A stretch of DNA of 64,000 nucleotides, taken from positions 1 to 64,000 of the forward strand of contig DWWX01000042.1 of NCBI GenBank assembly GCA_019119495.1, written 5' to 3'. Positions 2,471-41,931 of the stretch are shown in pieces; the first letter of the stretch is position 1; every line of letters begins with the position of its first letter. The notes under the pieces are model-generated. The model was not told the DNA's origin. It searched no databases and saw nothing but the letters and a program-made list of their open reading frames with translations. This DNA is from Candidatus Gemmiger stercorigallinarum. GTDB lineage: Bacteria; Bacillota; Clostridia; Oscillospirales; Ruminococcaceae. The position numbers and the translations under genes are program-made.

Positions 2471-3142
2471 TCAGCGGAACAGGTGCTCCAGCCCCAGGTC
2501 GCGGATATGGGCCACGATCTCTTTGGTGCGGGTGCAGCCGAATTTTTCGCGGATGCGGTGGATCTGGCCCTTAACGGTGTCCTGCCCCACAACACGGATC
2601 TCGCTGATCTGGCGGGCGTTGAGGCCCTGCAGCAGGTAGCGGATCAGCTCCCGCTCGGTGGGGGTCAGCGATGCCAGCGTGTTGACAAAATAGAGCAGGC
2701 TGGTCTCGTTGCGGCGCAGGCGGGAATATTCCCGCAGCATGACCTCCTGGGTATGGGCGGACATGATGGGGGTGCCGGCGTAGGCCATGCGGATGTGGCG
2801 GTAGAGCAGCTCGTTATCGCTGCCCTTGACAAAGTAGTCCACCGCGCCGGTGGCCATAGCGGTCAGGATCATGTCGTCGCTGTCGTGGGCAGTCAGGTAG
2901 ATGATGCGGGCCTGGGGCTTTTGGGGGTGGATGCGGGCGGCCGCGTCGATGCCCGCCTGGATGGATTCCATCTCGATGTCCAGCAGGATCACATCAAAGT
3001 CGCCGGCAAGCGCCAGTTCCACCGCCTGCGCGCCGGTGGCAGCCTCGCCCTCCACGGTAAAGTCCGGCTGGCTGTTCAGCTGCTGGCACAGGTCCTCGCG
3101 CAGGATGTCGTTATCCTCCGCCACCAGGATGCGGATGCTCAT
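2471..3142 (-). CDS. Response regulator, NarL/LuxR-like
   Basis: This 223-residue protein has an N-terminal receiver domain (VAEDN acidic pocket near residues 8-11, phosphoacceptor Asp in ILLDIEM near 55, the LTAHD segment and the VKGSD lysine loop). A C-terminal LuxR-type helix-turn-helix covers roughly residues 160-215 (LTPTERE, then GLNARQISE). Its ATG overlaps the stop of the upstream kinase by four bases (ATGA), so the pair is translationally coupled. It lies 66 bases before the nagB-like gene on the same strand, so control of that operon is plausible, but no binding site was identified. Confidence 0.88.
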   Translation of the reverse strand: MSIRILVAEDNDILREDLCQQLNSQPDFTVEGEAATGAQAVELALAGDFDVILLDIEMESIQAGIDAAARIHPQKPQARIIYLTAHDSDDMILTAMATGAVDYFVKGSDNELLYRHIRMAYAGTPIMSAHTQEVMLREYSRLRRNETSLLYFVNTLASLTPTERELIRYLLQGLNARQISEIRVVGQDTVKGQIHRIREKFGCTRTKEIVAHIRDLGLEHLFR

Positions 3143-4656
3143 GGTTTGCTCTGCCTCCTTCTGCCCCGTTCCGGCAGCAGCTTGGGCAGCAGGATGTAAA
3201 ACGCCGTGCCCTTGCCGTAGTCGCTGTCCACCTTCAGGATGCCCATGTGCTTTTTAACGATCGTGCGCACATAGTATAACCCCATGCCCCAGTTGGAATT
3301 GGAATTTTTGCTGGAGTAGAACGGTTCAAAGATCTTTTTCATCTCATACTTGCCAATGCCCACGCCGCTGTCCTGCACGCAGATGCCGATCTGGGTGGGT
3401 TTTTCGTAACAGGTCAGCCGCAGTGGGGCGTCCCGCCCGGCCGCAAGCGTCGCCTCCCAGCCGTTGATCAGCAGGTTCGCCACCGCGGCCTGCATGTGGG
3501 ACTCGTCGGCCAGCACCATCAGGCCGGGCGGCAGCTCCGCCTCCACGCGGGCGGCGGGATACTTTTTGTGCAGCACCTGGACCGCCCCCTGCACAATGGG
3601 CTCCACCGGGCATTCCCGCATGGAGATGGCATTGGATTTCAGGCTTTTGTACAGTTCCCCCACGTGTTCCAGCAGACCTTCGTTGGTGTCGGACATCTGC
3701 TGCAGCAGGGCGCGGGCCCTGGCCAGGTCGGGCTGCTGCGCGTCCAGCTCCTGGGTCAGCCGCCGGCAGAGGACGCGGTTTGCCAGCAGCTGGTTTTTGA
3801 TGCCGTGCAAAAACACCCCGCCGCTCATGCTGGCGGTATCGTACTTCCGCTGGAGGCGGATGTCATCGGCGGTCTCGCTCCACTCGATGCGGGCCATGCC
3901 CACCATCGACAGCGTTCCCGCCAGCAGCGCGGCCATGTTGATGACCACGACCGCCAGATAGGTCCCCGGCGACAGGTAGGGATTTAAGTACCACAGCCCC
4001 AGAGAGAACATATAATCGCCCCGGTAAAACAGGTAGACCTGGGCCGGGTCCTGGGGGCAGTAGATGGCGTACAGCGCCGCGATGCTGACAAGCAGCACAC
4101 ACCGCACCGCCACCGAGTTGCGGATGTAGCGGATGCGGGTAAAGCCGGGCTCCCGCACCAGCATCCAGCAGCCGGCCAGCAGATAAAGTACGATCCACGC
4201 CAGGGAAAAGCGGACCGCCGCCCGCTGCAGGGCTTCGCTGTCGGCGATCGAAGTGAACACCGTCGGATAATACAGCGCCAGCGAGACAGCGGGCAGCACC
4301 GCGGCTGCCCAGCTGTGCCGCCGCAGCCAGTTGAGCCGCGGGTCGCTGGAGGATTCCAGCGCCGTGAGCAGGAACAGCCACGGAAAGGTGAACCTGCCGA
4401 TGGCCATACCGTAACCCAGCTGCTGCAGCGTCATGATCGCATACTGCAGCGTATGGCGAAACCCCGATGTGACAAACAGCACCGTGCTGAGCGGTTCCAC
4501 GATGCCGCCCTTTTTGGCGATGTAGGTCAGCATGAACAGCAGGTAAACGCTGAGGCTGGCCGCCAGCGCGCACAGCAGCAGATATTCCTTTTTGCGCCGC
4601 ACCACCGCAAACACGGCGGATACGGCCAACAGGCAGACGGATACAGCCAGCGGCAT
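3139..4656 (-). CDS. Membrane sensor histidine kinase
   Basis: About 505 residues. The first half is a run of hydrophobic segments, probably six to eight transmembrane helices, with no recognised extracellular sensor domain. The catalytic half has an unusual H-box (FLHGIKNQ), an N-box (LLINGWEA), the G1 motif DSGVGIG and the F/G2 stretch FEPFYSS, GMGL. The ATG at 4656 was preferred over 4707 because AAAGGGGG lies about eight bases upstream, whereas nothing resembling a ribosome site precedes 4707. It phosphorylates the overlapping regulator. The ligand is unknown; the genomic setting (ABC importer upstream, amino-sugar genes downstream) hints at a nutrient signal. Confidence 0.85.
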   Translation of the reverse strand: MPLAVSVCLLAVSAVFAVVRRKKEYLLLCALAASLSVYLLFMLTYIAKKGGIVEPLSTVLFVTSGFRHTLQYAIMTLQQLGYGMAIGRFTFPWLFLLTALESSSDPRLNWLRRHSWAAAVLPAVSLALYYPTVFTSIADSEALQRAAVRFSLAWIVLYLLAGCWMLVREPGFTRIRYIRNSVAVRCVLLVSIAALYAIYCPQDPAQVYLFYRGDYMFSLGLWYLNPYLSPGTYLAVVVINMAALLAGTLSMVGMARIEWSETADDIRLQRKYDTASMSGGVFLHGIKNQLLANRVLCRRLTQELDAQQPDLARARALLQQMSDTNEGLLEHVGELYKSLKSNAISMRECPVEPIVQGAVQVLHKKYPAARVEAELPPGLMVLADESHMQAAVANLLINGWEATLAAGRDAPLRLTCYEKPTQIGICVQDSGVGIGKYEMKKIFEPFYSSKNSNSNWGMGLYYVRTIVKKHMGILKVDSDYGKGTAFYILLPKLLPERGRRRQSKP

Positions 4657-4808
4657 GGCCGGCGCCCCCTTTCCGGCTGCGCCGGCATTGGGGACTGCCG
4701 GACGCATGTTCCATTAGATAGAATGCTTAATAAATTATATCACACCCTTCGCCGCTGCGGCAGGTGCGGGCGAAATTTTTCACCGGCCGGGCGCCGCAGC
4801 CTGTATAC

Positions 4809-4852
4809 GGACAAAACGGGGCACAACGTCCGTTTTGTGCCCCGTTTTGTCC
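4809..4852 (-). terminator. Long hairpin after the ABC operon
   Basis: An 18-bp stem (4809-4826 with 4835-4852) and an 8-base loop lie just downstream of the substrate-binding protein stop at 4881. There is no strong U-run on either strand, so this is a probable but atypical terminator separating the ABC operon from the kinase gene. Confidence 0.6.
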
Positions 4853-4880
4853 TTTGGGTATTGCTGTGCGGGGCAGCCGC

Positions 4881-5951
4881 TTACTCGGCAGCCTCCTTCA
4901 TCAAGTCAAACATGACATAGTCGCTGACGGGGACCTCGCTCTCCACATCGCCGCTGGCGATAAAGCCGTCCTGCTGAGACTTGTACAGCGCCTCGATGGT
5001 GCCGTCGTTGATCTCGGCCATCATCTCGTCAGAGGTCAGCCACTCGGCGTCGCCGCGCTGGCTGTAGACCGTGTCAAAGTCCAGGGCGCACTCCTCGGCG
5101 ATCCACTGGCTGATCTGCTCGGCGTTGGCTTCGTCGGCGCGGTAATCCTTGGCCTTGTACAGGGCGCGGGTGAAGCGGAGCAGGTTGTCGTAATTCTCGT
5201 CGGCATAGTCGGCCATGCAGATCCAGCTGGAGACCGAGGCGGAGCTGTCAGAGAAGCTCAGGTTATCGGCCAGCTCGATCACATCGTCGCCCAGTTCTTC
5301 CTGGACCGCCAAGGTGCTGGGGCTCCACAGAGCGCAGGCGTCCAGAGAGCCGGAGACCATAGCGTTGACGATGCCGGAGGGTTCCATCTCCATGGCGTTG
5401 ATGTCATCGATGGTCAGGCCGGCGGAAGCCAGGGTCTTTTGCAGGATGGCCTCGCTGGAGGTGCCGGAGGCATAGCCGACCGTCTTGCCGGCCAGGTCGG
5501 CGGCAGTCTCGATGCCGTGGCTCTTCAGGGCCATAACGCGGTCGCCGTTGCCCACATGGGCAAAGCAGAAGATCTTGGCCTGGCCGTTGATGCACAGCTT
5601 GTGGGCGCCGGAGCCGATGTAGCCCACGTCGATGGAGCCGTTCTCCATAGCGGCGATGATGGTGGGGCCGTCCTGGAACTGGACCAGGTTGACGTCAATG
5701 CCTTCCTCCTCAAAATAGCCCATACGGTCGGCGGTGACCACCTCAACCAGGCTGGAGTAGTTGGGCATATAGGCCACGTTCATGGTGATGGGTTCCGCTT
5801 CCGGGGTGGCGTCGGCCGCCTCGCTGGTGGAGCCGGAACCGCTTTCGGCGGGCGCCGAGGAGCTTTCCGACGCGGTGGAGCCGGGATTGCTGCAGGCCGC
5901 CAGGCTGAGTGCCAAAGCCGCAGCAGTCAGGGTTGCAAGCAGTTTTTTCAT
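4881..5951 (-). CDS. NitT/TauT-family ABC transporter substrate-binding lipoprotein
   Basis: This is a 356-residue protein. It begins MKKLLATLTAAALALSLAACS, a lipoprotein signal with lipobox LAAC, followed by a Ser/Glu-rich linker. The mature part has the NMT1/SsuA-like fold signature: MPNYSSLVEV, MGYFEEEGIDV and DVGYIGSG. It should bind a small organic solute (sulfonate, nitrate-like, thiamine precursor or similar) outside the membrane. The ligand cannot be named from sequence. The start follows GGAGGG; an upstream in-frame extension to 6068 lacks a signal peptide and overlaps the ATPase end. It is the last gene of the ABC operon. Confidence 0.88.
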   Translation of the reverse strand: MKKLLATLTAAALALSLAACSNPGSTASESSSAPAESGSGSTSEAADATPEAEPITMNVAYMPNYSSLVEVVTADRMGYFEEEGIDVNLVQFQDGPTIIAAMENGSIDVGYIGSGAHKLCINGQAKIFCFAHVGNGDRVMALKSHGIETAADLAGKTVGYASGTSSEAILQKTLASAGLTIDDINAMEMEPSGIVNAMVSGSLDACALWSPSTLAVQEELGDDVIELADNLSFSDSSASVSSWICMADYADENYDNLLRFTRALYKAKDYRADEANAEQISQWIAEECALDFDTVYSQRGDAEWLTSDEMMAEINDGTIEALYKSQQDGFIASGDVESEVPVSDYVMFDLMKEAAE

Positions 5952-6067
5952 GGGTCGTTTTCCCTCCAATTTGGATATTAGAGTGTGCCTGATAAATCCA
6001 AAGTGCCGGGGATTTGCCAGATACACCCTGTTTTTTGCGGGGCCCGTGCGGGCGCCCGTTCGGGCCA

Positions 6068-6859
6068 TTATTTGCGGACTTCCAGGTATTCCTTGTAGAC
6101 CTCGCCCCAGATGATATTTTTCAGCTCGTTGAAGCGGGGGCTCATTCGGGTCTCCTGGGTGCGGGGATAGGGAATGTCAATGTCGACGATCTTTTTGATG
6201 CGGCCGGGGCGTGCACTCATAATAACGCAGCGCTGGCCCAGAATGATGGCCTCCTCCACATCGTGGGTGATGAAAAAACAGGTTTTCTGCTTTTTCTCCC
6301 AGGTGTTCAGCAGGTCGGTCTGCAGCTGGGCGCGGGTCTGGGCGTCCAGCGCGCCGAAAGGCTCGTCCATCAAAAGGATCTCCGGCTCGGCGGCATAGGC
6401 ACGCGCGATGGCGACGCGCTGCTTCATACCGCCGGAAAGCTCTTTGGGGTAATGGTCGGCAAACTTTTCCAGGTCGACCATCTGCAGGTACTTCATAGCC
6501 TGCTCCTCCGCTTCCGCGCCCTTGATGCCCCGCATCTCCAGCGCAAAGCAGACGTTTTTCTTGACCGTCAGCCACGGGAACAGCGCGTACTGCTGGAACA
6601 CCACGCCGCGCTCGCGGCCGACGCCCTCCACCGTTTCGCCATTGACCAGCACCTCGCCGGACGTGGGTTTGAGCAGGCCGGCGATGATGTTGAGCAGGGT
6701 GGACTTGCCGCAGCCCGAAGGGCCGACGACGGTGACGAATTCATTTTCGCGAATGTCCAGATCGGCGCCGTTCAGGGCGACCATCTCGCCCTTGCGGGTA
6801 TTGAACACCATCCTGACGTTGTCGATCTTGACTTTTACGCTTCTCGTTTCTCCTGCCAT
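6068..6859 (-). CDS. ABC transporter ATP-binding protein (NitT/TauT, SsuB/TauB-like)
   Basis: This is a 263-residue ATPase. It has Walker A GPSGCGKST, the Q-loop FQQYALFPW, the signature LSGGMKQR, Walker B ILLMDEPF and the H-loop FITHDVEEA. The sequence FGALDAQTR is typical of nitrate/sulfonate/taurine importers. It overlaps the end of the permease gene by 25 bases and is followed after 116 bases by the binding protein, so the three form one import system. The short gap to the next gene holds a GC-rich inverted repeat that might stabilise the processed transcript. Confidence 0.92.
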   Translation of the reverse strand: MAGETRSVKVKIDNVRMVFNTRKGEMVALNGADLDIRENEFVTVVGPSGCGKSTLLNIIAGLLKPTSGEVLVNGETVEGVGRERGVVFQQYALFPWLTVKKNVCFALEMRGIKGAEAEEQAMKYLQMVDLEKFADHYPKELSGGMKQRVAIARAYAAEPEILLMDEPFGALDAQTRAQLQTDLLNTWEKKQKTCFFITHDVEEAIILGQRCVIMSARPGRIKKIVDIDIPYPRTQETRMSPRFNELKNIIWGEVYKEYLEVRK

Positions 6860-15055: not shown

Positions 15056-15062
15056 AGGATTC

Positions 15063-15116
15063 AGCGGGCATTGGCCCTGCGGCGGATCGGCCGCGGGGCC
15101 AATGCCCGCTGTTTTT
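15063..15116 (+). terminator. Terminator of the GH115-like gene
   Basis: A 15-bp stem (15063-15077 with 15096-15110) around a GC-rich loop is followed by GTTTTTG, eight bases after the stop codon. Confidence 0.85.
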
Positions 15117-15141
15117 GCGGCTGCGGCGATGCCGCCCTGAT

Positions 15142-15170
15142 ACAAAAATGACAACCCCCTGCGCTATACT
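15142..15170 (+). promoter_or_regulatory. Module A promoter 1 with a 16-base activator-like element
   Basis: ACAAAAATGACAACCC (15142-15157) is followed after seven bases by a -10 box TATACT (15165-15170). There is no -35 consensus, as in activator-dependent promoters. The same 16-mer at the same distance from a -10-like box recurs at 19387, before the second lipoprotein gene. This suggests binding by the module's own OmpR-type regulator. Confidence 0.55.
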
Positions 15171-15216
15171 GGACACGGTTTCGATCCCATCCTGACGCAG
15201 AAAGGAAGTCCCTGCC

Positions 15217-16476
15217 ATGAAAACTCCCCGGACCATCGCCGCGGCCCTGCTGGCCGCTTTGACCCTGGCCGCCTGCGCGCCCGCCTCCGGCACGCAGACC
15301 TCCGCCCCCGCCGCCGCCCCTGCCGCCGGGCAGGACCCAGCCCCGGACACTGCCGCCGGGGCCGGCCTGCGCATTTTGACCGCGGGCAATGCCGACGGTA
15401 TGTACGCTGCCGTGACCGTGTCGGAGCCGGGCAGCCGCATCTTCCCGACGCTGCTCAGCTGGATCGACTATGCCAGCGCCCGGCAGGTCATCCTGTGCAG
15501 CCGCCCCAACTGTGATCACTCCGACGACAGCTGCCCGGCCCGGCTGCCGGCGGGCGCCGGCGAGGCAGGCTGCTACGCGCTGGACGACGGTCTGCTTTTG
15601 AAGTATTCGGTCACGGACCCGGATACCTACGAGCTGACCGGGCAGTACCTGTATCTCTGCGCGGCGGACGGCAGCGACCCCCGCCTGCTGGCGCAGACCG
15701 CCGCCAACTGGGATTTCCTGACCGACGGCGACGCCGTATATTACAGCTGCCAGCAGGTCGAAGGCCAGGACGCGGACGCCCTGGCACAGAGCGTCTGGTA
15801 CCGGCAGCCGCTTTCCGGCGGGCAGGCGGAGGAGCTTTTCCGCTGCGACATCGGCGACATGCTGGTGTGCTGCGCCGGGCGGGAGCTGGTGCAGGTCAAC
15901 TGGTTTGACAATGCGCTGTATGCCGTCAACGCGGATACCGGCGTGCGGCGCACCCTGCCCATGACCCCCGCCGGCGAGGACGGGCAGTCCTCCGCGTTCG
16001 CGGCGCTGGACGGCCGCCTGTACCAGCTTTTGCCCGGCGATACGGATACCCTCCGCTGGCTGGACATCGCCTCCGGCCAGGCCGGGACGCTGGCGCTGCA
16101 ATGGCCGGACGGCGCGGCGGCCGGGGAGCCGGGCCCCTTCTCGGCGGCGGGGGGAAAGCTGCTGCTGGAACTGGGCGACGGCGCCGGCAATTACCGCCGC
16201 GTGGCGGTGGACCCCGCCGACGGCAGCGTGACGGAGGTGCCGCTGCAGTTTATGGACGGCAGCTATCTCCAGCCTGTGCGCATCCTGGCCGAGGGCGGCA
16301 GCCAGCTGTACGTCCAGTATGAGACCCGGTTCGAGAGCGTCACGCTGCCCGGCAAAAGCGGCGAGCCGGTCCCCGGCGAGACCGCCGTGCCCCGCACCGC
16401 CCTGATCTCGTACACGGATTTCTTTGCCGGCGTGCCCAACTACCGCGACGTGGAAACCCTGCCCGCGGTGCAGTGA
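15217..16476 (+). CDS. Secreted lipoprotein with C-X4-C-X-H-X4-C motif, module A copy 1
   Basis: This is a 419-residue protein. A signal peptide ends in the lipobox LAAC (Cys20), followed by an Ala/Pro-rich linker. At residues 94-106 it has CSRPNCDHSDDSC, a C-X4-C-X-H-X4-C set well suited to bind a metal. The remainder is beta-rich, with repeated YLYLCAADGSD and DGRLYQLL elements that suggest a propeller. It is related to the protein at 19476-20822 and to the C-terminal half of the one at 37758-39830. It is the first gene of an operon with a response regulator 18 bases downstream. I know no family name; a sensory or ligand-binding role for the adjacent kinase is an inference. Confidence 0.8.
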   Translation: MKTPRTIAAALLAALTLAACAPASGTQTSAPAAAPAAGQDPAPDTAAGAGLRILTAGNADGMYAAVTVSEPGSRIFPTLLSWIDYASARQVILCSRPNCDHSDDSCPARLPAGAGEAGCYALDDGLLLKYSVTDPDTYELTGQYLYLCAADGSDPRLLAQTAANWDFLTDGDAVYYSCQQVEGQDADALAQSVWYRQPLSGGQAEELFRCDIGDMLVCCAGRELVQVNWFDNALYAVNADTGVRRTLPMTPAGEDGQSSAFAALDGRLYQLLPGDTDTLRWLDIASGQAGTLALQWPDGAAAGEPGPFSAAGGKLLLELGDGAGNYRRVAVDPADGSVTEVPLQFMDGSYLQPVRILAEGGSQLYVQYETRFESVTLPGKSGEPVPGETAVPRTALISYTDFFAGVPNYRDVETLPAVQ

Positions 16477-16494
16477 CCAGGAGGTGTCCCTGCC

Positions 16495-17154
16495 ATGTAC
16501 CCTGTGCTGATCGTGGAGGATGAAAAGCCCATTGCCGACCTGATCGACCTGACGCTGCGGCGGATGCAATACCAGTGCGTCAAGGTCTACAGCGGCGAGG
16601 ACGCCGCCGGGCTGATCGTCAACCGGCGGTTTGACCTGATCCTGCTGGACGTGATGCTGCCCGGCATCGACGGCTTTGCGCTGATGGATTACATCGCCCC
16701 CACCGGAACGCCGGTGATCTTTCTCACCGCGCGGGACAGCGTGGCCGACCGGGTGCGGGGGCTGCGCATGGGCGCCTGCGACTATATCGTCAAGCCCTTT
16801 GCGCCGGAGGAGCTGCTGGCGCGGGTGGACGGCCTGATGCGCCGCACCGGCCGCCGCAGCGCGCGGCTGCGGCTGTGGCAGGTGGAGATCGACCCGGACG
16901 CCCGCCAGGTGCTGCGGGACGGCCGCCCGGTGGAGCTGACCCCGCGGGAGTTTGACCTGCTGATGGTGCTGATGCAGAGCCGGGGCGTGGCCCTTTACCG
17001 CAATGTGCTGATGGAGCGGGTCTGGGGCCTGGACAGCGACGCCGGCCCCCGCACGCTGGACCTGTACATCTCCCGCCTGCGCAAAAAGCTGGGCTGGGCC
17101 GACAAGATCCGCACCGTGTCCGGCGTGGGCTACCGGCTGGAAGCCCGGCCCTGA
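16495..17154 (+). CDS. OmpR-family response regulator, module A
   Basis: This is a 219-residue protein. The receiver domain has VEDE, the phosphoacceptor Asp52 in LILLDVML, FLTARD and the VKPF lysine. A winged-helix DNA-binding domain spans about residues 125-215 (ELTPREFDLL; TLDLYISRLRKKLG; SGVGYRL). It lies between the lipoprotein and the kinase and is preceded by GGAGGTG. The closest protein in this window is the module B regulator at 41266-41931. Confidence 0.92.
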   Translation: MYPVLIVEDEKPIADLIDLTLRRMQYQCVKVYSGEDAAGLIVNRRFDLILLDVMLPGIDGFALMDYIAPTGTPVIFLTARDSVADRVRGLRMGACDYIVKPFAPEELLARVDGLMRRTGRRSARLRLWQVEIDPDARQVLRDGRPVELTPREFDLLMVLMQSRGVALYRNVLMERVWGLDSDAGPRTLDLYISRLRKKLGWADKIRTVSGVGYRLEARP

Positions 17155-17189
17155 CCTGCCGTTTCCCTGCTTTTTTTGGGAGGTGCCCC

Positions 17190-18641
17190 ATGACCTTTGC
17201 GCGCAAGCTGACGCTGGCAATGGCGCTGCTGCTCAGCCTGACTTTGTCGGCCGGCGGGGCGTGGACCATCGGGCGGAACTTTTCCGCCGCGCTGGACACC
17301 GCCGCCGCGGATGCCGCCGCCCGCCACCTGCGGGAGCGGTATGCCGTCGAGGAGCTGCTGGCCGGCACCGGCGGGCAGCCAGGCGACATTGCCCGCGCGG
17401 TGTTCGGCTATGCCCGCAGCCTGCGGGCGGCCGGCGGCAGCGGCTACTGTTTTGCGGTGCTGGACGGCAGCGGCACCGTGCTTTGGTCCGACCTGCCCCG
17501 CGCCGTGTCCTTTGCCAGCCAGTGGCAGGCGGTGCAGGCCGGGGCCGGGGCCATGCTTTACTGCGGCAGCGCCGACGACGCCTGGCTGGTGCTGGCCTCG
17601 CCCTTGCAGGGGCAGAACACGGCGCTGTACCTGGTGGGCGGCTATGACGTCACCGCCCAGTTTGCCGAGCATGGCCGCCAGCTGCGGCAGTACCTGGCGG
17701 TGGAGTGCGCGGCGCTGGCATTGGCGGTGGGGGCGGCGGCGCTGCTGGCCTGGGGGCTGACCCGGCCGCTGCGCCGGCTGGAGGCCGCCAGCCGGGACCT
17801 GGCCGCCGGGGACTACGCCCGCCGGGTCCCGCCCGGCGGCGGGACCGAGTTTGCCCGCCTGGCCGACGGCTTCAACACCATGGCCGGCGCGGTGCAGGCC
17901 AACATGGACGCCCTGCGCCGCCAGGACGAAAGCCGCGCCCGCTTTGTGGCGGCCTTTACCCACGAGCTGAAAACCCCCATGACGGCCATCCTGGGCTATG
18001 CCGACCTGCTGCGCAGCGGCGAACAGCCCGCCGATGTGCGCCAGCTGGCCGCCGACTACATCTACCACGAATCCGCCCGGCTGGAGACCCTCAGCCGGGA
18101 GCTGCTGACCCTGCTGGGGCTGGAACAGGGCCCGCCCCCGGCCCAAAAGCCGGAGCCGGTGTCCGGCATTTTTGCCGACGCGCTGCGCAGCCTGCCCGCC
18201 CCCGCGCCGGTGCAGGTGGTGCAAAGCTGCCCGCCCGGCGCGGCGGTGTGCGCCAACCGGGCGCTTTTGGCCGACCTGGTGCGCAACCTGCTGCTGAACG
18301 CCGCCGCTGCAAACCCGGCGGACGGCTGCGTCCGGCTGACCTGCGCCGCCCGGGGGGACCTGTGGCGCATCACGGTGGCCGACAGGGGGCGGGGCATCCC
18401 GCCCGGGGACCTGCCCCATGTGACCGAGCCCTTTTATATGGCCGACAAAAGCCGCACCCGCGCCCGCGGCGGCAGCGGCATGGGCTTGAGCCTGTGCGCC
18501 GCCATCGCCGCGGCCCACGGCACGGCGCTGCACATTGAAAGCGAGCCGGGCCGGGGCACCGCCGTCTGGCTGGAGCTGCCCGCCGCCGGGCTGCCGGCCG
18601 CCCTGCCGGCCGAAAAGGAGGACCCGCCATGCCGCAGCTGA
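17190..18641 (+). CDS. Sensor histidine kinase, module A
   Basis: This is a 483-residue protein. Transmembrane helix 1 (about 5-25) and helix 2 (about 168-190) bracket an extracellular sensor of about 140 residues that contains WSDLP. A HAMP domain follows, then the H-box FTHELKTPM with His258, the N-box NLLLNAAA, DRGRGIP and GSGMGLSL. It phosphorylates the upstream regulator. Both helix 1 and the sensor motif match the module B kinase (39827-41269), so the two are paralogues. Its 3' end overlaps the next gene by 13 bases. Confidence 0.92.
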   Translation: MTFARKLTLAMALLLSLTLSAGGAWTIGRNFSAALDTAAADAAARHLRERYAVEELLAGTGGQPGDIARAVFGYARSLRAAGGSGYCFAVLDGSGTVLWSDLPRAVSFASQWQAVQAGAGAMLYCGSADDAWLVLASPLQGQNTALYLVGGYDVTAQFAEHGRQLRQYLAVECAALALAVGAAALLAWGLTRPLRRLEAASRDLAAGDYARRVPPGGGTEFARLADGFNTMAGAVQANMDALRRQDESRARFVAAFTHELKTPMTAILGYADLLRSGEQPADVRQLAADYIYHESARLETLSRELLTLLGLEQGPPPAQKPEPVSGIFADALRSLPAPAPVQVVQSCPPGAAVCANRALLADLVRNLLLNAAAANPADGCVRLTCAARGDLWRITVADRGRGIPPGDLPHVTEPFYMADKSRTRARGGSGMGLSLCAAIAAAHGTALHIESEPGRGTAVWLELPAAGLPAALPAEKEDPPCRS

Positions 18642-19396
18642 CCCGCCTGGCCGCCTTTGCCAAAAAGAATGCCGGCCGCCTGGCCACCGGGGCGGTCGTA
18701 TGCCTGTGCGCCGCCGCGCTGCTTTTGCCCGGTGTTTTGGGGGCCGCCCGCCAGGCGCAGCTGCTGGGGCAGGTGCAGCCCCGCCCCGCCGTGGCGGGGG
18801 TGCCCTCGGAGCAGGCGCGCAGCATCCCGCTGCTGTATGACCTGTACCGCCGGCAGGCCGGGGACCCGCTGCCGCAGGCGGACACCGCCGCCGAAGCCGG
18901 CGAGGCAGCCGCGGTGGCGGCGGACCTGGCCGGCCGGCTGCGCGCCCTGGCCGGCGCCGGCCTGCTGACCGACGCCCAGCGGGACGCCGTTCTGCGCCTG
19001 CTGGCGGAGCTGCCCGGCCGGCCGGATGCGAACATCCTGTACGGCGGGGACGGCAGCTTTGCCGCTGCCGCCTGCTTTGGCCCGGACGGCGGCGTCAGCA
19101 TGACCTGGCACCGGGACACCGGCGGCGTGGTGGAGCTCTCCTTTTGGGGCGGCGCCCTGCCGCAGCAGGCCGACCCCGCCGCAATGCTGGCCGCCTGGCG
19201 CGCCGCCCTGGGCCTGGACGTGCTGGCGGACTGGGCCGAGCCGGCGCTGAACGACGGCGCGGCCTGCCGGTCGGACAGCGCCCAGCTGTATCTTTACTGC
19301 GTGGAGTCCGTCGATTCGCTGCGGATGGAGATGGTGGTGCTGACCGCTGACGCCGTGCTGCCCGGCAGCGCCGATACCGCCCCGACACAAAAATGA
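18629..19396 (+). CDS. Membrane-anchored protein of module A, homologous to the N-half of the 690-aa module B protein
   Basis: This is a 255-residue protein. A transmembrane helix at about residues 18-38 is followed by an extracellular domain. The segment AMLAAWRAALGLDVLADW (185-202) aligns with VLRAWVAMNDLDILGDW (225-241) of the protein at 37758-39830. The surrounding order also agrees: a LxxLxxAGxLTxxQ helix, an xDTGGVVELSFW strand and a final beta segment. No known domain was recognised. It is translationally coupled to the kinase (13-base overlap), which suggests they work together. A shared promoter element lies over its stop codon. Confidence 0.75.
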   Translation: MPQLTRLAAFAKKNAGRLATGAVVCLCAAALLLPGVLGAARQAQLLGQVQPRPAVAGVPSEQARSIPLLYDLYRRQAGDPLPQADTAAEAGEAAAVAADLAGRLRALAGAGLLTDAQRDAVLRLLAELPGRPDANILYGGDGSFAAAACFGPDGGVSMTWHRDTGGVVELSFWGGALPQQADPAAMLAAWRAALGLDVLADWAEPALNDGAACRSDSAQLYLYCVESVDSLRMEMVVLTADAVLPGSADTAPTQK

Positions 19397-19415
19397 CAAC
19401 CCGGCGTGGTATGGT
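19387..19415 (+). promoter_or_regulatory. Module A promoter 2 with the same 16-base element
   Basis: ACAAAAATGACAACCC (19387-19402) is identical to 15142-15157 and is again followed after seven bases by a -10-like box (TATGGT, 19410-19415). It overlaps the end of the preceding gene and precedes the second lipoprotein gene by 60 bases. Confidence 0.55.
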
Positions 19416-19475
19416 AAGGGCATCCAAAGAGCCGCCTGCGCCCTGCCGGCGGCCCCAAAAAAAGAGGTGTGCCTG

Positions 19476-20822
19476 ATGAAACGACCCGAATACGCCCGCC
19501 CCATCCCCCGCCGGGCGGCCGCCCTGGCAGCGGCGCTGGCGCTGGCTTTGTGCGCCTGCGCGCCGGGGCAAACGTCGGCGCCGGGCAGCAGCCCCGCTGC
19601 CGGCGCCGAAAGCCCCGCCGCGGCAGACCCTGCGGCGGGAGAGCTGCAGCTGCTTTCCCCGGGGAATGAACAGGGCCGCTACGCGATCGGCTATGCCGGC
19701 AGCGGCCCCCAGCCTCACAGCCTGCTGTGCTGGGTGGACTATGCCGCCGCGGCCGCCGCGATTTTGTGCAGCCAGCCCAACTGCACCCATGACAGCGACG
19801 CCTGCACCGCATGGCTGGGGCAAAGCGCCGCCGCACTGGCCTATTCGCTGCCCGACGGCCGGCTGCTGCTCCACCGCCCGGAACCGGGAAGCACGGTTTC
19901 CGCCCTGCTGCTTGCCAATGCCGACGGCAGCGACCCGGCCGAGCTGTTTTGCACGGCGGACGTCATCCGGGCGGATATGGCCGACAGCCAGTGGCTGTAC
20001 ATCGAGCGGTATGCGGCGGAGGACGACGCCGCGCAGAATGCCCTTTACCGCCTGCCGCTGGACGGCGGCGAGCCGGAATGGCTGATGGACCTGGAGATGG
20101 GCCAGAACACCAGCGCCGGCGTCATCGGCTGCCTGGGGCGGGAATTGATCTACTATTCGTTTGACTGGGGCGACGACACCGCGCCCCCGGAGGCAATGAA
20201 CTGGACCGCGGAAGAGTGGGAAGCCTGGGACGCAAGCCAGACCGGCACCCACAAGGTGGAAGCCATCAACGTGGACACCGGCGCCCGGCGGCAGCTTGCG
20301 GCCTGGACTTCCCACGGGGGCAGCGCCGGTTATGCCTGCGCCGTATTTGACGGTATGCTGTACCGCACGCCGGACAACGCCCAGGGCGACCTGCTTGTTA
20401 CCGACATTGCCTCCGGCAGCGAGCGGACGGTAAAGATCCAGTGGCCGTTTGCCCTGGAACAAGCCCGTTGGACCGAACTCCCGGCCATGGCGGGCGGGAA
20501 GCTGCTGGTGGATGTGTGGGGCCCGGACAGCAACGAGTACCGCATCGCCGTGGACCCCGCCACCGGCGATGCGGCCGAGCTGACGCTGAAAATGCTGTCC
20601 AACGGACACCTGATCGGGATCCAGGTCCTGGGAGACAGCGGCGCCGACCTGCTGGTATGCTTTGAGATCCGCATGATGGATATTACCGACTACAGCCCGG
20701 ACGGCACCCTGACCCCCGCCACCAGGGGTGTTTCGCAGTATGCGCTGATCTCCACGGAGGATTTTCTGGCCAGCCGCCCCGGCTACCGCACCTTGCAGAC
20801 CGACCATCCGCTTACAATGTGA
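19476..20822 (+). CDS. Secreted lipoprotein with C-X4-C-X-H-X4-C motif, module A copy 2
   Basis: This is a 448-residue protein. The signal peptide ends in LCAC (Cys28 or Cys26), followed by an Ala/Ser/Pro linker. CSQPNCTHDSDAC at residues 98-110 gives the same C-X4-C-X-H-X4-C spacing as the first lipoprotein. A WVDYA segment just before it matches SWIDYA there. The rest is beta-rich and propeller-like. The ATG at 19476 follows AGAGG by eight bases; a GTG at 19467 overlaps that ribosome site and was rejected. It probably has its own promoter (19387-19415) and functions with the module A kinase. Confidence 0.8.
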   Translation: MKRPEYARPIPRRAAALAAALALALCACAPGQTSAPGSSPAAGAESPAAADPAAGELQLLSPGNEQGRYAIGYAGSGPQPHSLLCWVDYAAAAAAILCSQPNCTHDSDACTAWLGQSAAALAYSLPDGRLLLHRPEPGSTVSALLLANADGSDPAELFCTADVIRADMADSQWLYIERYAAEDDAAQNALYRLPLDGGEPEWLMDLEMGQNTSAGVIGCLGRELIYYSFDWGDDTAPPEAMNWTAEEWEAWDASQTGTHKVEAINVDTGARRQLAAWTSHGGSAGYACAVFDGMLYRTPDNAQGDLLVTDIASGSERTVKIQWPFALEQARWTELPAMAGGKLLVDVWGPDSNEYRIAVDPATGDAAELTLKMLSNGHLIGIQVLGDSGADLLVCFEIRMMDITDYSPDGTLTPATRGVSQYALISTEDFLASRPGYRTLQTDHPLTM

Positions 20823-20836
20823 AAGAAGGCCCTGCC

Positions 20837-20956
20837 ATGGCACCGGCCACGGCAAAACGGCCGCCCCGCCGGGCGGCGGAGTATGCCATCCTGTCCGGGC
20901 AGCCTGCCTGTCAGGACATCGCCCTGGCCGAGGATATCCTTCTGGACCTGCCGTGA
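20837..20956 (+). CDS. Possible small protein after the module A lipoprotein
   Basis: This is a 39-codon reading frame (MAPATAKRPPRRAAEYAILS...LLDLP) starting 14 bases after the lipoprotein stop, with AGAAGG seven bases before its ATG. It has a basic N-terminus and an acidic C-terminus. No family was recognised. It could be a genuine coupled small protein or a chance frame. Confidence 0.3.
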   Translation: MAPATAKRPPRRAAEYAILSGQPACQDIALAEDILLDLP

Positions 20957-21013
20957 CAAAAATGCGGCCGGCGCCCGCGGAGGGGGCTTTCTCCCTTTCC
21001 GCGGGCGCCGGCC
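20957..21013 (-). terminator. Terminator of the GntR gene
   Basis: On the minus strand a perfect 16-bp stem (20998-21013 with 20966-20981) is followed by GCATTTTTG, about 60 bases beyond the GntR stop. Confidence 0.85.
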
Positions 21014-37757: not shown

Positions 37758-39830
37758 CTAGAAAACCGGCCGGATCGCATCGGCGCCTGTGTAAAGCAGC
37801 GCATCCGGGTCAGCGATCCCCAGTATCTCGCCTACGGTCCCCTCTCTTTGTACCAGCAGCCCGCAGCTGGTCAGCGCCGCAGGGAACCACCCCTGGACGA
37901 CCACATCCCGCGGGAGCTGCCGCACCTCACCGGTGGCGGGGTCATACAGGCCGCCGCTGTCCGGGGCCCGGTAGACCACCAGGTTCCGCTGCTCAACGCC
38001 GGGGGCGGACAGCGAAGCGTATGTGGTCAGGCTGTACACATCCTCCTCCGGCAGATCAAACTGCCAGTTGCTGCCGCTGCGCAGGTTGACCACAGTGGCC
38101 GGGAGTCTTTCCGCCTGAGCGACCCCATCGGTGGAAACATGGCCCGCCTCGGTGACAAACAGGAACTCGTTGGCGCTGTACGGCTGGGAAAAAAGGATGT
38201 CGTTGCCGGGCAGCCAGGCTACATGGCGGTGGCTGCCGGCGGCCGGGTCGATCAGCTCCACCTCCAGCCGGGTAGCCTGGCTGCGGAGCCAACTGCTTAT
38301 CACCGTGAAGGTTTCCGGCAGCCAGGCGCGGCTGTACACCCGCCGCACCGCCACCAGGCAGCCGTTGTAGCAGCCGGTGATCTGCTCGTCGGGGCCGATC
38401 AGCGCGGGGGTCAGGGTGCGCTGGCCGGTGGCCAGGTCCACGGCCACCAGCCGCCGGGGCTGGGTGCCGCCGGCCGAGCCGCTGGTGTTCAGCAGGCCGT
38501 ACACGGTGGACACGCTGCCGGCCAGGTACTCGATGTTGTCTCCGGTCAGGGCGGCGACCGTCCGCTTGCCGGTGCGGTCGGTCGAGAGTTCGACAATGCG
38601 GGGCGGCCGCTGCGTTCCCTCGCCGTCCGTGCAGGCGGGCAGCAGCACATACAGCTTGCCGTTGGCAGCGTGCAGATATGCGCCCGCCCCGTTGTCGTAT
38701 GCGTCGCCCACAACGGCGGGGCAGGACTCGTCGCTGTGGGTGCAGTCCGGTTTCCGGCAGGCGATCTGGACGGTCCCCGCCGACGCGTCCATGCAGAGGA
38801 CCTGCAGGGCCGCCAGGTCATCATAGCCGCCGTCCAGGAAGTAGACCTCCCTGTAGGTGTTGCAGAAATCGCTGCGCACATCCACCAGCCCGCCGCCGGT
38901 GTACAGCTGGTTGTTGGTGATGCCGGAAGCATCCCCCTCGCCCGCCAGCGCGGCGGCCTGCATCTGCTGGGGGGTGCAGGGGACCAGGTCCAGTGCGACG
39001 CCGCCAAGGGCGTTCCCGTCGTCCATAACCGTCACGCAGGTGGCCAGCAGGCCGCCGCGGGCGCTGTACAGGCCGGTGTCCTGCCAGATCGTGTTCTCCG
39101 GCACCGTCCAGTCGCCCAGGATGTCCAGGTCGTTCATGGCGACCCAGGCGCGCAGGACCGCCTCGGTGTCCACCTCGCTGCCGATGCTTTCCAGGCCGTT
39201 GTAGCCATCCGGCCACCCGTTCCACAGCTGGAAGGACACCACCTTGCCGGTGCGGCTTTCCAGCACCATGCGCATCACCGGCTCGGCGGTGTTGTTCGCG
39301 GGACTGCAGACAATGGTCAAAAAGCCCAGCGTGTCGCTGCCGCCAAAAAAGCGGTCCGGGTAACCGTCGATCAATATCTGCCCGGCAGCGGCCTGGTCCA
39401 CCGTCAGGATGCCGGCCTCCAGCATGCTGTTGAGCAGTTCCTCGCAGCGGGGGACCAGCTGCGGGCTGCGCTGCAGGCTGTCCTCGCCGCCGAAATAGAT
39501 GGGCTGCGAGGAATTTCCGTCCGAGGCCTCGGCCTGGTAGGCGGCAATCTCGGCCTCGGCGCGCTCGTTGAGCATCCGCACCAGGTACAGGTCGTCCCCC
39601 TCCACCGTGCGGGACTGGTAGGGGGTGTCCATCCGGGCGGCGTTGGAAAAGCGGGCCGCGTCCCCCAGCGTGAACATGGCCGAGGGCGCCAGCATGGTCA
39701 GCAGCACCGCCAGCACACAGCCGGCCGCCGCCAGCGCCGTTATCCGGCCGGGGCTCAGCCCGGGGGCGCGGGGCGCGGCGTCCTGCGCGGGCCGCCGGGG
39801 CCGGCGGCCAAAGGGCCTGGGCTGCATCAT
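37758..39830 (-). CDS. Module B membrane-anchored fusion protein (sensor-like N-half plus C-X4-C-X-H-X4-C half)
   Basis: This is a 690-residue protein. A basic, Pro/Arg-rich N-terminus and one transmembrane helix (about residues 30-50) precede an extracellular region. Residues about 75-290 are homologous to the 255-residue module A protein (VLRAWVAMNDLDILGDW versus AMLAAWRAALGLDVLADW). Residues about 325-690 match the module A lipoproteins and include CRKPDCTHSDESC at 358-370 (C-X4-C-X-H-X4-C). Two genes that are separate in module A are therefore one here. It overlaps the kinase stop by four bases (ATGA), with GGAGG seven bases upstream. Function unknown. Confidence 0.8.
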   Translation of the reverse strand: MMQPRPFGRRPRRPAQDAAPRAPGLSPGRITALAAAGCVLAVLLTMLAPSAMFTLGDAARFSNAARMDTPYQSRTVEGDDLYLVRMLNERAEAEIAAYQAEASDGNSSQPIYFGGEDSLQRSPQLVPRCEELLNSMLEAGILTVDQAAAGQILIDGYPDRFFGGSDTLGFLTIVCSPANNTAEPVMRMVLESRTGKVVSFQLWNGWPDGYNGLESIGSEVDTEAVLRAWVAMNDLDILGDWTVPENTIWQDTGLYSARGGLLATCVTVMDDGNALGGVALDLVPCTPQQMQAAALAGEGDASGITNNQLYTGGGLVDVRSDFCNTYREVYFLDGGYDDLAALQVLCMDASAGTVQIACRKPDCTHSDESCPAVVGDAYDNGAGAYLHAANGKLYVLLPACTDGEGTQRPPRIVELSTDRTGKRTVAALTGDNIEYLAGSVSTVYGLLNTSGSAGGTQPRRLVAVDLATGQRTLTPALIGPDEQITGCYNGCLVAVRRVYSRAWLPETFTVISSWLRSQATRLEVELIDPAAGSHRHVAWLPGNDILFSQPYSANEFLFVTEAGHVSTDGVAQAERLPATVVNLRSGSNWQFDLPEEDVYSLTTYASLSAPGVEQRNLVVYRAPDSGGLYDPATGEVRQLPRDVVVQGWFPAALTSCGLLVQREGTVGEILGIADPDALLYTGADAIRPVF

Positions 39831-41269
39831 GGCTGTACCTCCTTCTGCGCATCCTCTGTGTCAGTGGGGCCGGCTGTGTCCGGCAGGCGGGCGGGTCGGA
39901 GCGTCAGCGTCACGCAGGTGCCCTTGCCCAGCGTGCTGCGGATGTGCAGCTGGCTGCCGTGGGCCTGGGCAATGCGCTGGCACAGCGCCAGGCCGATGCC
40001 GCTGCCGCCGCTTTTGCGGGCGCGGGATTTGTCCACCATGTAAAAGGGTTCCACCACGCGGGCCACCGCCTCCGGCGGGATGCCCGCGCCGGAATCGATG
40101 ACGCCGGCCACCACGCTGCCGTCCGGTGCTCCGCCGCTTAACACCCGCACCGTCTGGCCGGGCCGGCTGGCCTTGACCGCGTTGGTGACCAGGTTGCACA
40201 AAAGGTCGCACAGCAGGTCGGCGTCGGCCATCACCACCCGCCGGGTGGTGGGCAGGCGCAGCCGCACGCCGGCTTTGCGGCAGGCGGGCAGCGTACTGCG
40301 GGCGACCTCGGCAAAGACCGGGGCCAGGGCGGTGGGGGCCAGGGCGACCGGCTCCTCGCTCAGGCGCATCAGCTGCAGCAGTTTCTGGCTCAAGGATTCC
40401 AGCCGTTTTGCCTCGTGGAAGATGGCCCCGGCGGCCTCCTTCTGCTCGGCGGGGTCCACCTGCATGCTGCGCAGCATGTCGGCATAGCCGATGATGCTGG
40501 TCATGGGGGTTTTCAGCTCATGGGTGAACGCCCCCATAAAATCGTCCCGCTGCTGCACCGACAGTTCCAGCTGCTCCACCTTATCCTGCACGGCGGCAGC
40601 CATGTGGTCAAAGCTGCGGCTGAGCTGGGCGACCTCGTCGCCGCCGGGCAGGGCGGTGCGGCGGTCAAAGGCGCCGGCGGCGATCTCGCCGCTGGCACGG
40701 GTCAGCAGCGCCAGCGGCCGGGTGATCCTGCGGGACAACACCACCGTGACCAGCGCCGCGCCCAGCAGCACCACAAACTCCATGACCAAAAAGCGCCCCA
40801 CGCTGCGGCTGCGGGCCAGGTACAGCTCGGTGACGTCAAAGGCCGTCAGCAGGCGCGCGTCGCCCAGCAGGTCGGTGCAGTAGACGGCGTAGACGGTGCC
40901 GCCGTCCCGGTAGTACAGCAGCTGGCCGCTCTGCATGGCGTCGGCGGAAAAGTTCTGGGGCAGGTCGCTGTACACCGCGCCGCCGCCGATCTGCCACACG
41001 CCGATGGCGCAGTTGTCCGGCGCAGCGGCGGCCACCTGCTCGCCGGCGGCCAGCAGCGCCGCGTCGGTGACGGCGTCGCCCTGGCTGTACAGGGTCAGCA
41101 GCTCGCCCTCCAGTGTATAGCAAAGCAGGCCGTGCTGGACCTGGTTTTGGGACGAGGTCTCGGCCAGCCTGTCGGAAAAGTCGCCGTACAGCAGCATGCA
41201 GCCGCCGGCCGACAGCGAAACTGCCAGCACCAGCATCATAACGCAGCTGAGCTTGGCGGCAAACTTCAC
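39827..41269 (-). CDS. Sensor histidine kinase, module B
   Basis: This is a 480-residue paralogue of the module A kinase. The first helix matches (KLSCVMMLVLAVSLSAGG versus KLTLAMALLLSLTLSAGG). The extracellular sensor contains YSDLP, and a second helix at about 157-178 leads into HAMP. The H-box is FTHELKTPM with His250, the N-box is NLVTNAVKA, then DSGAGIP and GSGIGLAL. It begins with GTG, overlapping the regulator stop (GTGA), and is followed by the fusion gene with another four-base overlap. All three are tightly coupled. Confidence 0.92.
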   Translation of the reverse strand: MKFAAKLSCVMMLVLAVSLSAGGCMLLYGDFSDRLAETSSQNQVQHGLLCYTLEGELLTLYSQGDAVTDAALLAAGEQVAAAAPDNCAIGVWQIGGGAVYSDLPQNFSADAMQSGQLLYYRDGGTVYAVYCTDLLGDARLLTAFDVTELYLARSRSVGRFLVMEFVVLLGAALVTVVLSRRITRPLALLTRASGEIAAGAFDRRTALPGGDEVAQLSRSFDHMAAAVQDKVEQLELSVQQRDDFMGAFTHELKTPMTSIIGYADMLRSMQVDPAEQKEAAGAIFHEAKRLESLSQKLLQLMRLSEEPVALAPTALAPVFAEVARSTLPACRKAGVRLRLPTTRRVVMADADLLCDLLCNLVTNAVKASRPGQTVRVLSGGAPDGSVVAGVIDSGAGIPPEAVARVVEPFYMVDKSRARKSGGSGIGLALCQRIAQAHGSQLHIRSTLGKGTCVTLTLRPARLPDTAGPTDTEDAQKEVQP

Positions 41270-41931
41270 GGTGTTTCCTCCTCCCGCTTCAGCCGGTAGC
41301 CGACCTTGTAGACCGTCTCGATATGGTCCTGCCAGCCCAGCTTTTTGCGCAGCCGCTGGATGTGCAGGTCCAGGGTGCGGGTGTCGGCCATCTCGCCGCC
41401 CCAGACCCGCTCATACAGGGTGTCGCGGTAAAGGGCCGCGCCGCGGTTGCGCATCAGCTGTTCCAGCAGGCCGAACTCCAGCGGGGTCAGTTCCAGCTCA
41501 TGGCCGCGCTGGGTCACGGTGTGGCTGACGGTGTCCAGCTCAACGTCAAAGGCTTTCAGCACCCGGCCGCCCTTGCCGGTGCGGCGCAGCACCGTCTCTA
41601 CCCGCGCCAGCAGCTCCTCGATCTCAAAGGGCTTGACCAGGTAATCGTCGGCGCCCAGCCGCAGCCCCTGCACCCGGTCTTTCAGGCTGCTTTTGGCGGT
41701 GATAAAGATCACCGGCGTGCCCATGGGGCGCAGGTAATCCAGCAGGGCATAGCCGTCCAGCCCCGGCAGCATAATGTCCAAAAGCGCCAGGTCAAAGCCG
41801 CTGTTCTCGATGCAGTTGGCGGCGGTCAGGCCGTCGTTGGCCACCGTGCAGTCGTACCCTGCGCGGGACAGGCTCATCTCGATCAGGCGCGAGATCGCTG
41901 TCTCGTCCTCCACGATCAGGATGCGGTTCAT
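41266..41931 (-). CDS. OmpR-family response regulator, module B
   Basis: This is a 221-residue protein. The receiver has VEDE, the phosphoacceptor Asp in LALLDIML and VKPF. The winged-helix part has ELTPLEFGLL, TLDLHIQRLRKKLG and YKVGYRL. The ATG at 41931 has GGAGGTG nine bases upstream; a GTG at 41943 overlaps that site and was rejected. It is the first gene of module B and lies about 150 bases downstream of a cluster of TGTATC half-sites that may be its own binding region. Confidence 0.92.
   Translation of the reverse strand: MNRILIVEDETAISRLIEMSLSRAGYDCTVANDGLTAANCIENSGFDLALLDIMLPGLDGYALLDYLRPMGTPVIFITAKSSLKDRVQGLRLGADDYLVKPFEIEELLARVETVLRRTGKGGRVLKAFDVELDTVSHTVTQRGHELELTPLEFGLLEQLMRNRGAALYRDTLYERVWGGEMADTRTLDLHIQRLRKKLGWQDHIETVYKVGYRLKREEETP

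Follow-up and report, generated by a model that had tools for sequence, protein, structure and literature searches.

A recurring two-component gene module with a single-pass membrane protein and predicted propeller-type Cys/His-motif lipoproteins in a Gemmiger-related gut bacterium

In the MtrAB-LpqB system of Actinobacteria, the lipoprotein gene lies directly 3' of the kinase gene and its product is presented as a likely periplasmic modulator of a 'three-component system' (PMC12338722). The YycFGHI/WalRKHI operons of Bacillus and Staphylococcus carry the kinase gene followed by genes for membrane proteins that modulate the kinase (PMC3262814), and the walA-walR-walK-truA2 operon of C. difficile is reported to be essential and non-autoregulated (PMC9210968). 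Here, a stretch of 64,000 nucleotides (nt) from Candidatus Gemmiger stercorigallinarum (GenBank assembly GCA_019119495.1, contig DWWX01000042.1, positions 1 to 64,000 of the forward strand; hereafter the window) was analyzed for a five-gene two-component cluster, designated module A. Gut Clostridia have many kinases of unknown input. Module A is proposed, with confidence slightly better than even, to be self-contained and self-activating, its kinase being set by an outer complex of a membrane protein and a propeller lipoprotein.

Module A consists of genes for lipoprotein 1, an OmpR/PhoB-type response regulator, a histidine kinase, a single-pass membrane protein (mem) and lipoprotein 2, all on the + strand at 15217-20822. 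Open reading frame (ORF) calls bore out the five consecutive genes, in this order, of the initial annotation, together with its 18-nt gap between lipoprotein 1 and the regulator and its 13-nt overlap of kinase and mem. The genes are as follows (lengths in amino acids, aa).

15217..16476, + strand: lipoprotein 1, Cys/His-motif, predicted beta-propeller type by homology with lipoprotein 2 (ORF of 419 aa)
16495..17154, + strand: response regulator, OmpR/PhoB type (ORF of 219 aa; PF00072, E 4e-27; PF00486, E 4e-22)
17190..18641, + strand: sensor histidine kinase (ORF of 483 aa; HAMP, HisKA, HATPase_c)
18629..19396, + strand: mem, single-pass membrane protein with a predicted outer alpha/beta domain (ORF of 255 aa)
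19476..20822, + strand: lipoprotein 2, Cys/His-motif beta-propeller lipoprotein according to its predicted-structure model (ORF of 448 aa)

The start of lipoprotein 2 was taken as the ATG at 19476; the ORF list gives an upstream GTG at 19467. The regulator contains Response_reg and Trans_reg_C domains (Pfam), and the kinase has an outer domain of ~140 residues between two hydrophobic segments (hydropathy). Both have the parts of an OmpR/PhoB-type two-component pair, namely a receiver with winged-helix output and a HAMP-HisKA-HATPase kinase with an H-box; the phospho-acceptors His258 of the kinase (H-box) and Asp52 of the regulator were assigned by reading.

Gene linkage was scored in 84 fetched loci (numbered L) plus the window, which gave 83 mem genes, reduced to 67 non-redundant genes by removal of near copies at 90% identity. 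Loci were picked nearly all by mem sequence and not by kinase. Seven of the 85 sequences had no called mem gene: L073 and L074 entered via weak lipoprotein hits, L066, L080, L159 and L160 via weak search hits, and L151 has a mem profile match whose gene was overlooked by the gene caller. A kinase gene lay directly 5' of mem in 65/67 non-redundant genes, window included, and in 63 of the 65 the two genes overlapped or were <=14 nt apart. The regulator was in the same gene run for 64/67 mem genes, and a propeller lipoprotein was adjacent or fused for 52/67; kinase, regulator and propeller were all present for 52/67. The two mem genes without a kinase were in L161, probably a chance match, and in L153, near a contig end. 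Twelve mem loci had a regulator and kinase with no lipoprotein counted; two of them are cut by the sequence end (L042 at its edge, and L088), and L140 and L142 carry a lipoprotein farther off. The conserved co-occurrence that had been suggested as a check was thus seen across several genera, and the gene set is, by these comparisons, a conserved module and more than a chance grouping.

The lipoprotein gene was found before the regulator (window, L149 and L152), between regulator and kinase (L131, on contig C1 of the same genome) and, in most loci, after mem, and in 5/67 cases mem and propeller formed one polypeptide (Module B, described below, L043, L075, L078 and L154), so that order changes and membership is constant. 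A 4-nt overlap of the lipoprotein gene with mem was seen in L057, L060, L064, L076 and L077. A longer run of regulator, kinase, mem, lipoprotein, ATPase and permease was present in L087 and L089 (the latter with a 62-aa ORF inside the run), and also in L084, where the ATPase is split by gene calls. The transporter of this ABC-2 type (ABC, ATP-binding cassette) comprises an ABC ATPase and a ~790-aa protein that matches ABC2_membrane_4 at best below threshold (2/3 tested); the L087 ATPase is supported by Pfam, and the L087 and L089 permeases by sub-threshold matches only.

Lipoproteins 1 and 2 are paralogues (35% identity, E 6e-50) that both contain C-x4-C-x-H-x4-C, in keeping with the paralogy and common Cys/His motif claimed initially. 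The motif was unchanged in 16/16 aligned lipoproteins, in which the invariant columns were C98, P101, C103, H105 and C110 (lipoprotein 2 numbering); its three Cys and one His suggest a metal site, with a disulphide as a possible alternative. Lipoboxes were assigned by reading as LAAC in lipoprotein 1 and the less canonical LCAC in lipoprotein 2. The beta-rich character attributed to both proteins held for lipoprotein 2, which was predicted to be nearly all beta (model with a predicted local distance difference test score, pLDDT, of 82.5). Its model gave 244 PDB matches at E <= 0.001, including S9-type peptidases and TolB, which we take to contain beta-propellers, and the 7-bladed 3s25; the query template modelling score (TM-score) was <=0.48 among the matches listed. 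Lipoprotein 2 is, on this model, a beta-propeller-type lipoprotein. Neither window lipoprotein matched a Pfam or NCBIfam family above cut-off, nor did any of the 16 exceed a curated cut-off in those libraries; sub-threshold NCBIfam contacts were made by single members (PG1828_fam_lipo, E 0.0007; PA2928_fam, E 0.0016). Searching the PDB by sequence gave no convincing match.

The wider propeller family was present in 44/197 sampled genomes of its own taxonomic family. Sorted by setting, 112 non-redundant lipoproteins stood with kinase and mem (75), with kinase, mem and ABC-2-type transporter (5), with the transporter only (18), with another kinase and transporter (1) or with none of these (13); the loci were not random, and the way they were drawn enriched kinase modules. 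The scatter of kinase-less homologues raised initially as a point against a system was therefore partly true for the lipoproteins (18 plus 13 of 112) and not for mem, and the lipoproteins with their motif belong to a wider family and are not specific to the kinase system as had been assumed. C-x4-C-x-H-x(2-7)-C occurred in 95/112 lipoproteins, with or without a kinase, and the motif was discarded as a marker of kinase modules. Separately, a distant propeller-type protein was found paired with a 450-493-aa lipobox-bearing protein in four tandem pairs with no kinase (L206:4647-16933).

The membrane protein has a single long N-terminal helix (residues 3-47 of an AlphaFold2 model, pLDDT 86.4), as the initial description of a one-helix protein stated. 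No Pfam match was obtained for the window protein or for 24 mem proteins, and the window protein gave only a sub-threshold NCBIfam contact (isochor_syn, E 0.0047, 16 of 225 bits). Fold search of the PDB with the model returned nothing at E <= 0.001, the best match being the YidC periplasmic domain (E 0.098); matches to the YpeB C-terminal domain and two Bacteroides proteins were weaker still and were set aside as unusable. By these searches, mem and the Cys/His propeller are parts without a match to a named family in the libraries used.

Among 10 loci from named genomes, the three closest mem relatives were those of Gemmiger gallinarum and two Gemmiger metagenome-assembled genomes; the others are labelled Subdoligranulum, Faecalibacterium, Ruthenibacterium, Anaeromassilibacillus and uncultured Clostridia. 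A single-protein query matched 27/150 genomes, 25 of them within the genus (35 genomes), own genome counted; of the two outside it, one (G108, L066) has neither the module kinase nor the regulator. The 24-row mem profile (A1, every row kinase-linked) matched 28/297 genomes and 15/126 genera of the family, 7/295 genomes of the order and 2/291 of the class, each count including the own genome. The six other matches in the order were weak (E 1.3e-5 to 5.8e-4): L156, L157 and L158 lie in a regulator-kinase-mem run, L159 and L160 have no called mem gene and L161 has no kinase. The one other match in the class (L162) lies in a regulator-kinase-mem run.

The own genome (2.06 Mb) holds four mem genes, in module A, in Module B of the same window and on contigs C40 and C1. 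The C1 paralogue (L131, C1:5000-18500) is ordered regulator, lipoprotein, kinase, mem, lipoprotein. Module B is the following.

37758..41931, - strand: Module B, paralogous to module A (regulator 221 aa, kinase 480 aa, fused mem-propeller protein 690 aa)

Profile scores for Module B were 94 bits (mem), 59 bits (lipoprotein), 629 bits (kinase) and 372 bits (regulator). The fused protein (37758-39830, -) directly follows the kinase and has the propeller motif CRKPDCTHSDESC. In the three closest relatives, module A runs regulator-kinase-mem-lipoprotein-lipoprotein, unlike in the window, where its first gene is a lipoprotein, and in two of the three (L042 and L043) the Module B pair is directly 3' of module A. 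Of the genes adjoining Module B in the window, the 435-aa one shares 95% and the 226-aa one 88% identity with neighbours of module A in G. gallinarum (L042); module A has therefore probably moved in the lineage of the window.

Candidate regulatory elements were located upstream of both lipoprotein genes of module A.

15139..15155, + strand: proposed regulator site 1, GATACA-N5-GACAAC direct repeat with 11-bp spacing, 5' of lipoprotein 1 (predicted)
15165..15170, + strand: -10-like box TATACT, 9 nt 3' of site 1 (direct reading)
19384..19400, + strand: proposed regulator site 2, GACACA-N5-GACAAC, overlapping the mem stop codon, 5' of lipoprotein 2 (predicted)
19410..19415, + strand: -10-like box TATGGT, preceded by TGG, 9 nt 3' of site 2 (direct reading)

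Identical copies of the 16-mer ACAAAAATGACAACCC lie at 15142 and 19387. Allowing <=3 mismatches, it had 2 matches in the window versus 0.39 expected (5/100 shuffles reached 2), and the 2.06-Mb genome showed no other match to its leading 15 bases at <=1 mismatch. Zero-mismatch sites for GAHACAAAAMTGACAA numbered exactly two in each of four genomes searched: in the window they precede lipoproteins 1 and 2, and in three relatives one precedes the regulator and the other the first lipoprotein. G024 gave a single further site with 1 mismatch, and the reversed control pattern hit G000 once; the G000 and G015 genomes are ~86% complete.

Other modules have related but different repeats at the same places, e.g., GAAACA-N5-GAAACA. 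Where both promoters were available (18 loci), the 20-mer that they shared best had on average 15.2 matching positions within the same locus, compared with 13.5 across loci and 12.7 in shuffled sequence; in L044, L049 and L131 the best shared stretch was other than the element. A GAAACA-N5-GAAACA-like repeat (>=9/12 letters) was present in 49/62 operon promoters and 14/19 lipoprotein promoters versus 50/301 controls, which were upstream regions of unrelated genes from the same loci. Spacing 11 was prominent, operon promoter counts being 49/62 at this spacing and 29, 17, 20 and 23 at spacings 9, 10, 12 and 13 (shuffles 10-12%). With a -10-like box 8-10 nt away, the repeat was found in 39/62 operon and 7/19 lipoprotein promoters versus 8/301 controls; the promoters are not all independent, some loci being close relatives, and the lipoprotein 1 promoter of the window scores nothing in the 39/62 count. 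Candidate direct repeats, 11 bp apart, are on these counts present in most module promoters across genera, usually shortly 5' of a -10-like box. Such a repeat lies at the -35 position, as would the site of a PhoB-type activator.

In the proposed self-activating circuit, mem would dock the propeller lipoprotein and would hold the outer domain of the kinase on or off. The propeller would be the place where an outside signal is read, and its three Cys and one His are possible metal ligands or parts of a thiol/disulphide switch. Upon signal the kinase would phosphorylate the regulator, which would then bind the candidate repeats and raise its own operon and the lipoproteins as feedback. A kinase-mem-propeller complex is the most economical reading because of the fusions and the constant kinase-mem adjacency. 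Activation by the module appears to be directed mainly at its own genes, and the output that can be read from the DNA would be the module itself. Because the gene run extends into an ABC-2-type transporter in some relatives, the module likely serves to tune some function of the surface or of export in response to a cue from the envelope or the environment. A more elaborate version is offered tentatively and is itself doubtful: a three-layer sensor, in which a metal- or thiol-liganded propeller lipoprotein sits on a single-pass adaptor with an undescribed alpha/beta domain that gates the kinase, and in which the regulator controls its own module only, such that the four copies in the genome of one gut commensal, each paralogue with DNA sites of its own, would form insulated circuits for different extracellular cues.

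Several observations weigh against the sensor complex or the promoter evidence. The propeller family elsewhere stands without this kinase, and a quick tree (rough, with long branches) placed kinase-linked lipoproteins in several groups, so that the lipoproteins could be outputs and not sensor parts. Well-supported branches required five or more switches between the kinase-linked state and other settings, so that lipoproteins have probably changed setting more than once; a single origin of those linked to kinases was unsupported in this tree. Eight regulator-kinase-mem cores had no recognisable lipoprotein nearby (L058, L059, L061, L144, L156, L157, L158 and L162), and the core can therefore do without the propeller. 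Counting linkage was mildly circular, since all 24 rows of profile A1 were kinase-linked. The repeat consensus was likewise derived from the same promoters later counted, some counted hits are off-register from the shared element (e.g., the L042 and window lipoprotein promoters), and spacing 9 also exceeds the shuffled level. Of the 12 letters of the family consensus, the two sites of the window match only 8, their second half being GACAAC, and they fall outside the registered hits; their evidence is therefore conservation in four genomes and not the family score. An 11-bp-spaced repeat before the Module B regulator was looked for and not seen.

A circuit that senses through kinase and mem and exists to induce surface propeller lipoproteins (binding proteins or transporter partners) as its output is accordingly a possible minority explanation. 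It would account for a site-bearing promoter before both lipoproteins of module A in the window, or before the first one in three relatives, for the separate promoter region before the lipoprotein in addition to the operon promoter at 18 loci, for members of the same family beside an ABC-2-type transporter without a kinase, and for cores without a recognisable lipoprotein (L144, L156-L158, L162 and others). However, mem-propeller fusion in 5 non-redundant modules is hard to explain for a mere output, and the 4-nt overlap of lipoprotein and mem genes in several modules also speaks against it. Least credible of all is that a common two-component pair merely adjoins membrane-protein and lipoprotein genes with which it has no relation: surface-protein genes often adjoin two-component pairs, but the linkage (65/67 and 52/67), the fusions and the common promoter element contradict a chance neighbourhood.

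Improbable, too, is the reading that the module represents a local version of WalRK or MtrAB, the essential envelope systems, with a WalA- or LpqB-like lipoprotein. The order of lipoprotein 1, regulator and kinase resembles walA-walR-walK of C. difficile, where walA encodes a lipoprotein with a predicted beta-propeller, although that operon is reported to be non-autoregulated (PMC9210968) and module A has a proposed site at both promoters. MtrB and MtrA were the third-best NCBIfam models for kinase and regulator, but both were below cut-off (MtrA, 172.6 of 300 bits; MtrB, 139.2 of 450 bits). The LpqB propeller family PF10647 was touched by 1/16 lipoproteins (E 0.066), and the Germane model matched none of the 16 lipoproteins or 24 mem proteins; an LpqB/Germane identity was rejected. 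Identity with WalRK was rejected as well: the regulator scored ~160 of 340 bits on the YycF model, behind six other regulators of its genome, none of them over cut-off, and the YycH and YycI models matched none of the 24 mem proteins at E <= 1. The own genome has four mem modules, whereas an essential system is expected in one copy. The self-activating kinase-mem-propeller module remains the preferred reading.

Module A is bounded by hairpins, and two further items were noted in the window.

15064..15109, + strand: terminator-like hairpin at the boundary of the upstream gene and the module (20-pair stem, then TGTTTTTG)
20966..21013, strand unassigned: strong hairpin 3' of the module (-51.7 kcal/mol, z -6.7), outside the terminator-like set

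The folding energy of 15060-15122 was -53.2 kcal/mol (z -7.8), and the region contained 12 terminator-like sites versus 3.2 in shuffles. The initial end coordinate of the module, 20956, also spans a 39-codon ORF (20837-20956, +) 3' of lipoprotein 2, which has a plausible ribosome site; a search for its conservation gave only the self-match as useful. A further regulator/kinase pair at 2471-6811 (-), weak against the module profiles and adjoining a 356-aa lipoprotein and another gene, looks like a different system.

Beyond the initial annotation, the window was found to contain two candidate regulatory repeats and the fused Module B. In this Gemmiger-related gut bacterium the cassette is compact and repeatedly copied. 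Neither mem nor the Cys/His propeller exceeded any curated cut-off of the family libraries used, yet four modules occur in one 2-Mb genome and the propeller in 44/197 genomes of the family. With parts, fusion partners and candidate DNA sites all visible, input, adaptor and output could be tested with few constructs.

The initial view that no named system has this gene set stands in that neither the lipoproteins nor mem match a named family above its cut-off in Pfam or NCBIfam, and titles or shown abstracts in the open PMC library gave no literature on the set; it needs qualification in that a kinase is likewise accompanied by a (predicted) propeller lipoprotein in MtrAB-LpqB and C. difficile WalA-WalRK. 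The lipoprotein 2 model resembles 3s25, a 7-bladed beta-propeller-like protein of Eubacterium rectale (E 4.3e-6, target TM-score 0.58), which presumably belongs to DUF5050 (PF16472); that family was touched by 2/16 lipoproteins, not significantly (best E 0.038). Every sequence test run for MtrAB-LpqB and WalRK failed, and by that measure the module is outside both. Like MtrAB-LpqB, it has an OmpR-type regulator, a kinase and a neighbouring lipoprotein, and the Pfam name of PF10647 gives LpqB a beta-propeller domain; unlike it, module A has a separate single-pass protein between kinase and propeller, its propeller bears C-x4-C-x-H-x4-C, four paralogous modules are present in the own genome and any similarity in sequence to LpqB falls short of significance. 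The lipoprotein gene directly before regulator and kinase is shared with C. difficile WalA-WalR-WalK, in which there is no mem gene. A membrane-protein gene following the kinase gene is shared with YycFGHI/WalRKHI, an operon that to our knowledge has no propeller lipoprotein. By analogy, the module may work like MtrAB-LpqB, WalRKHI and, as has been suggested for that system, C. difficile WalA-WalRK, with neighbouring outer or membrane proteins tuning the kinase.

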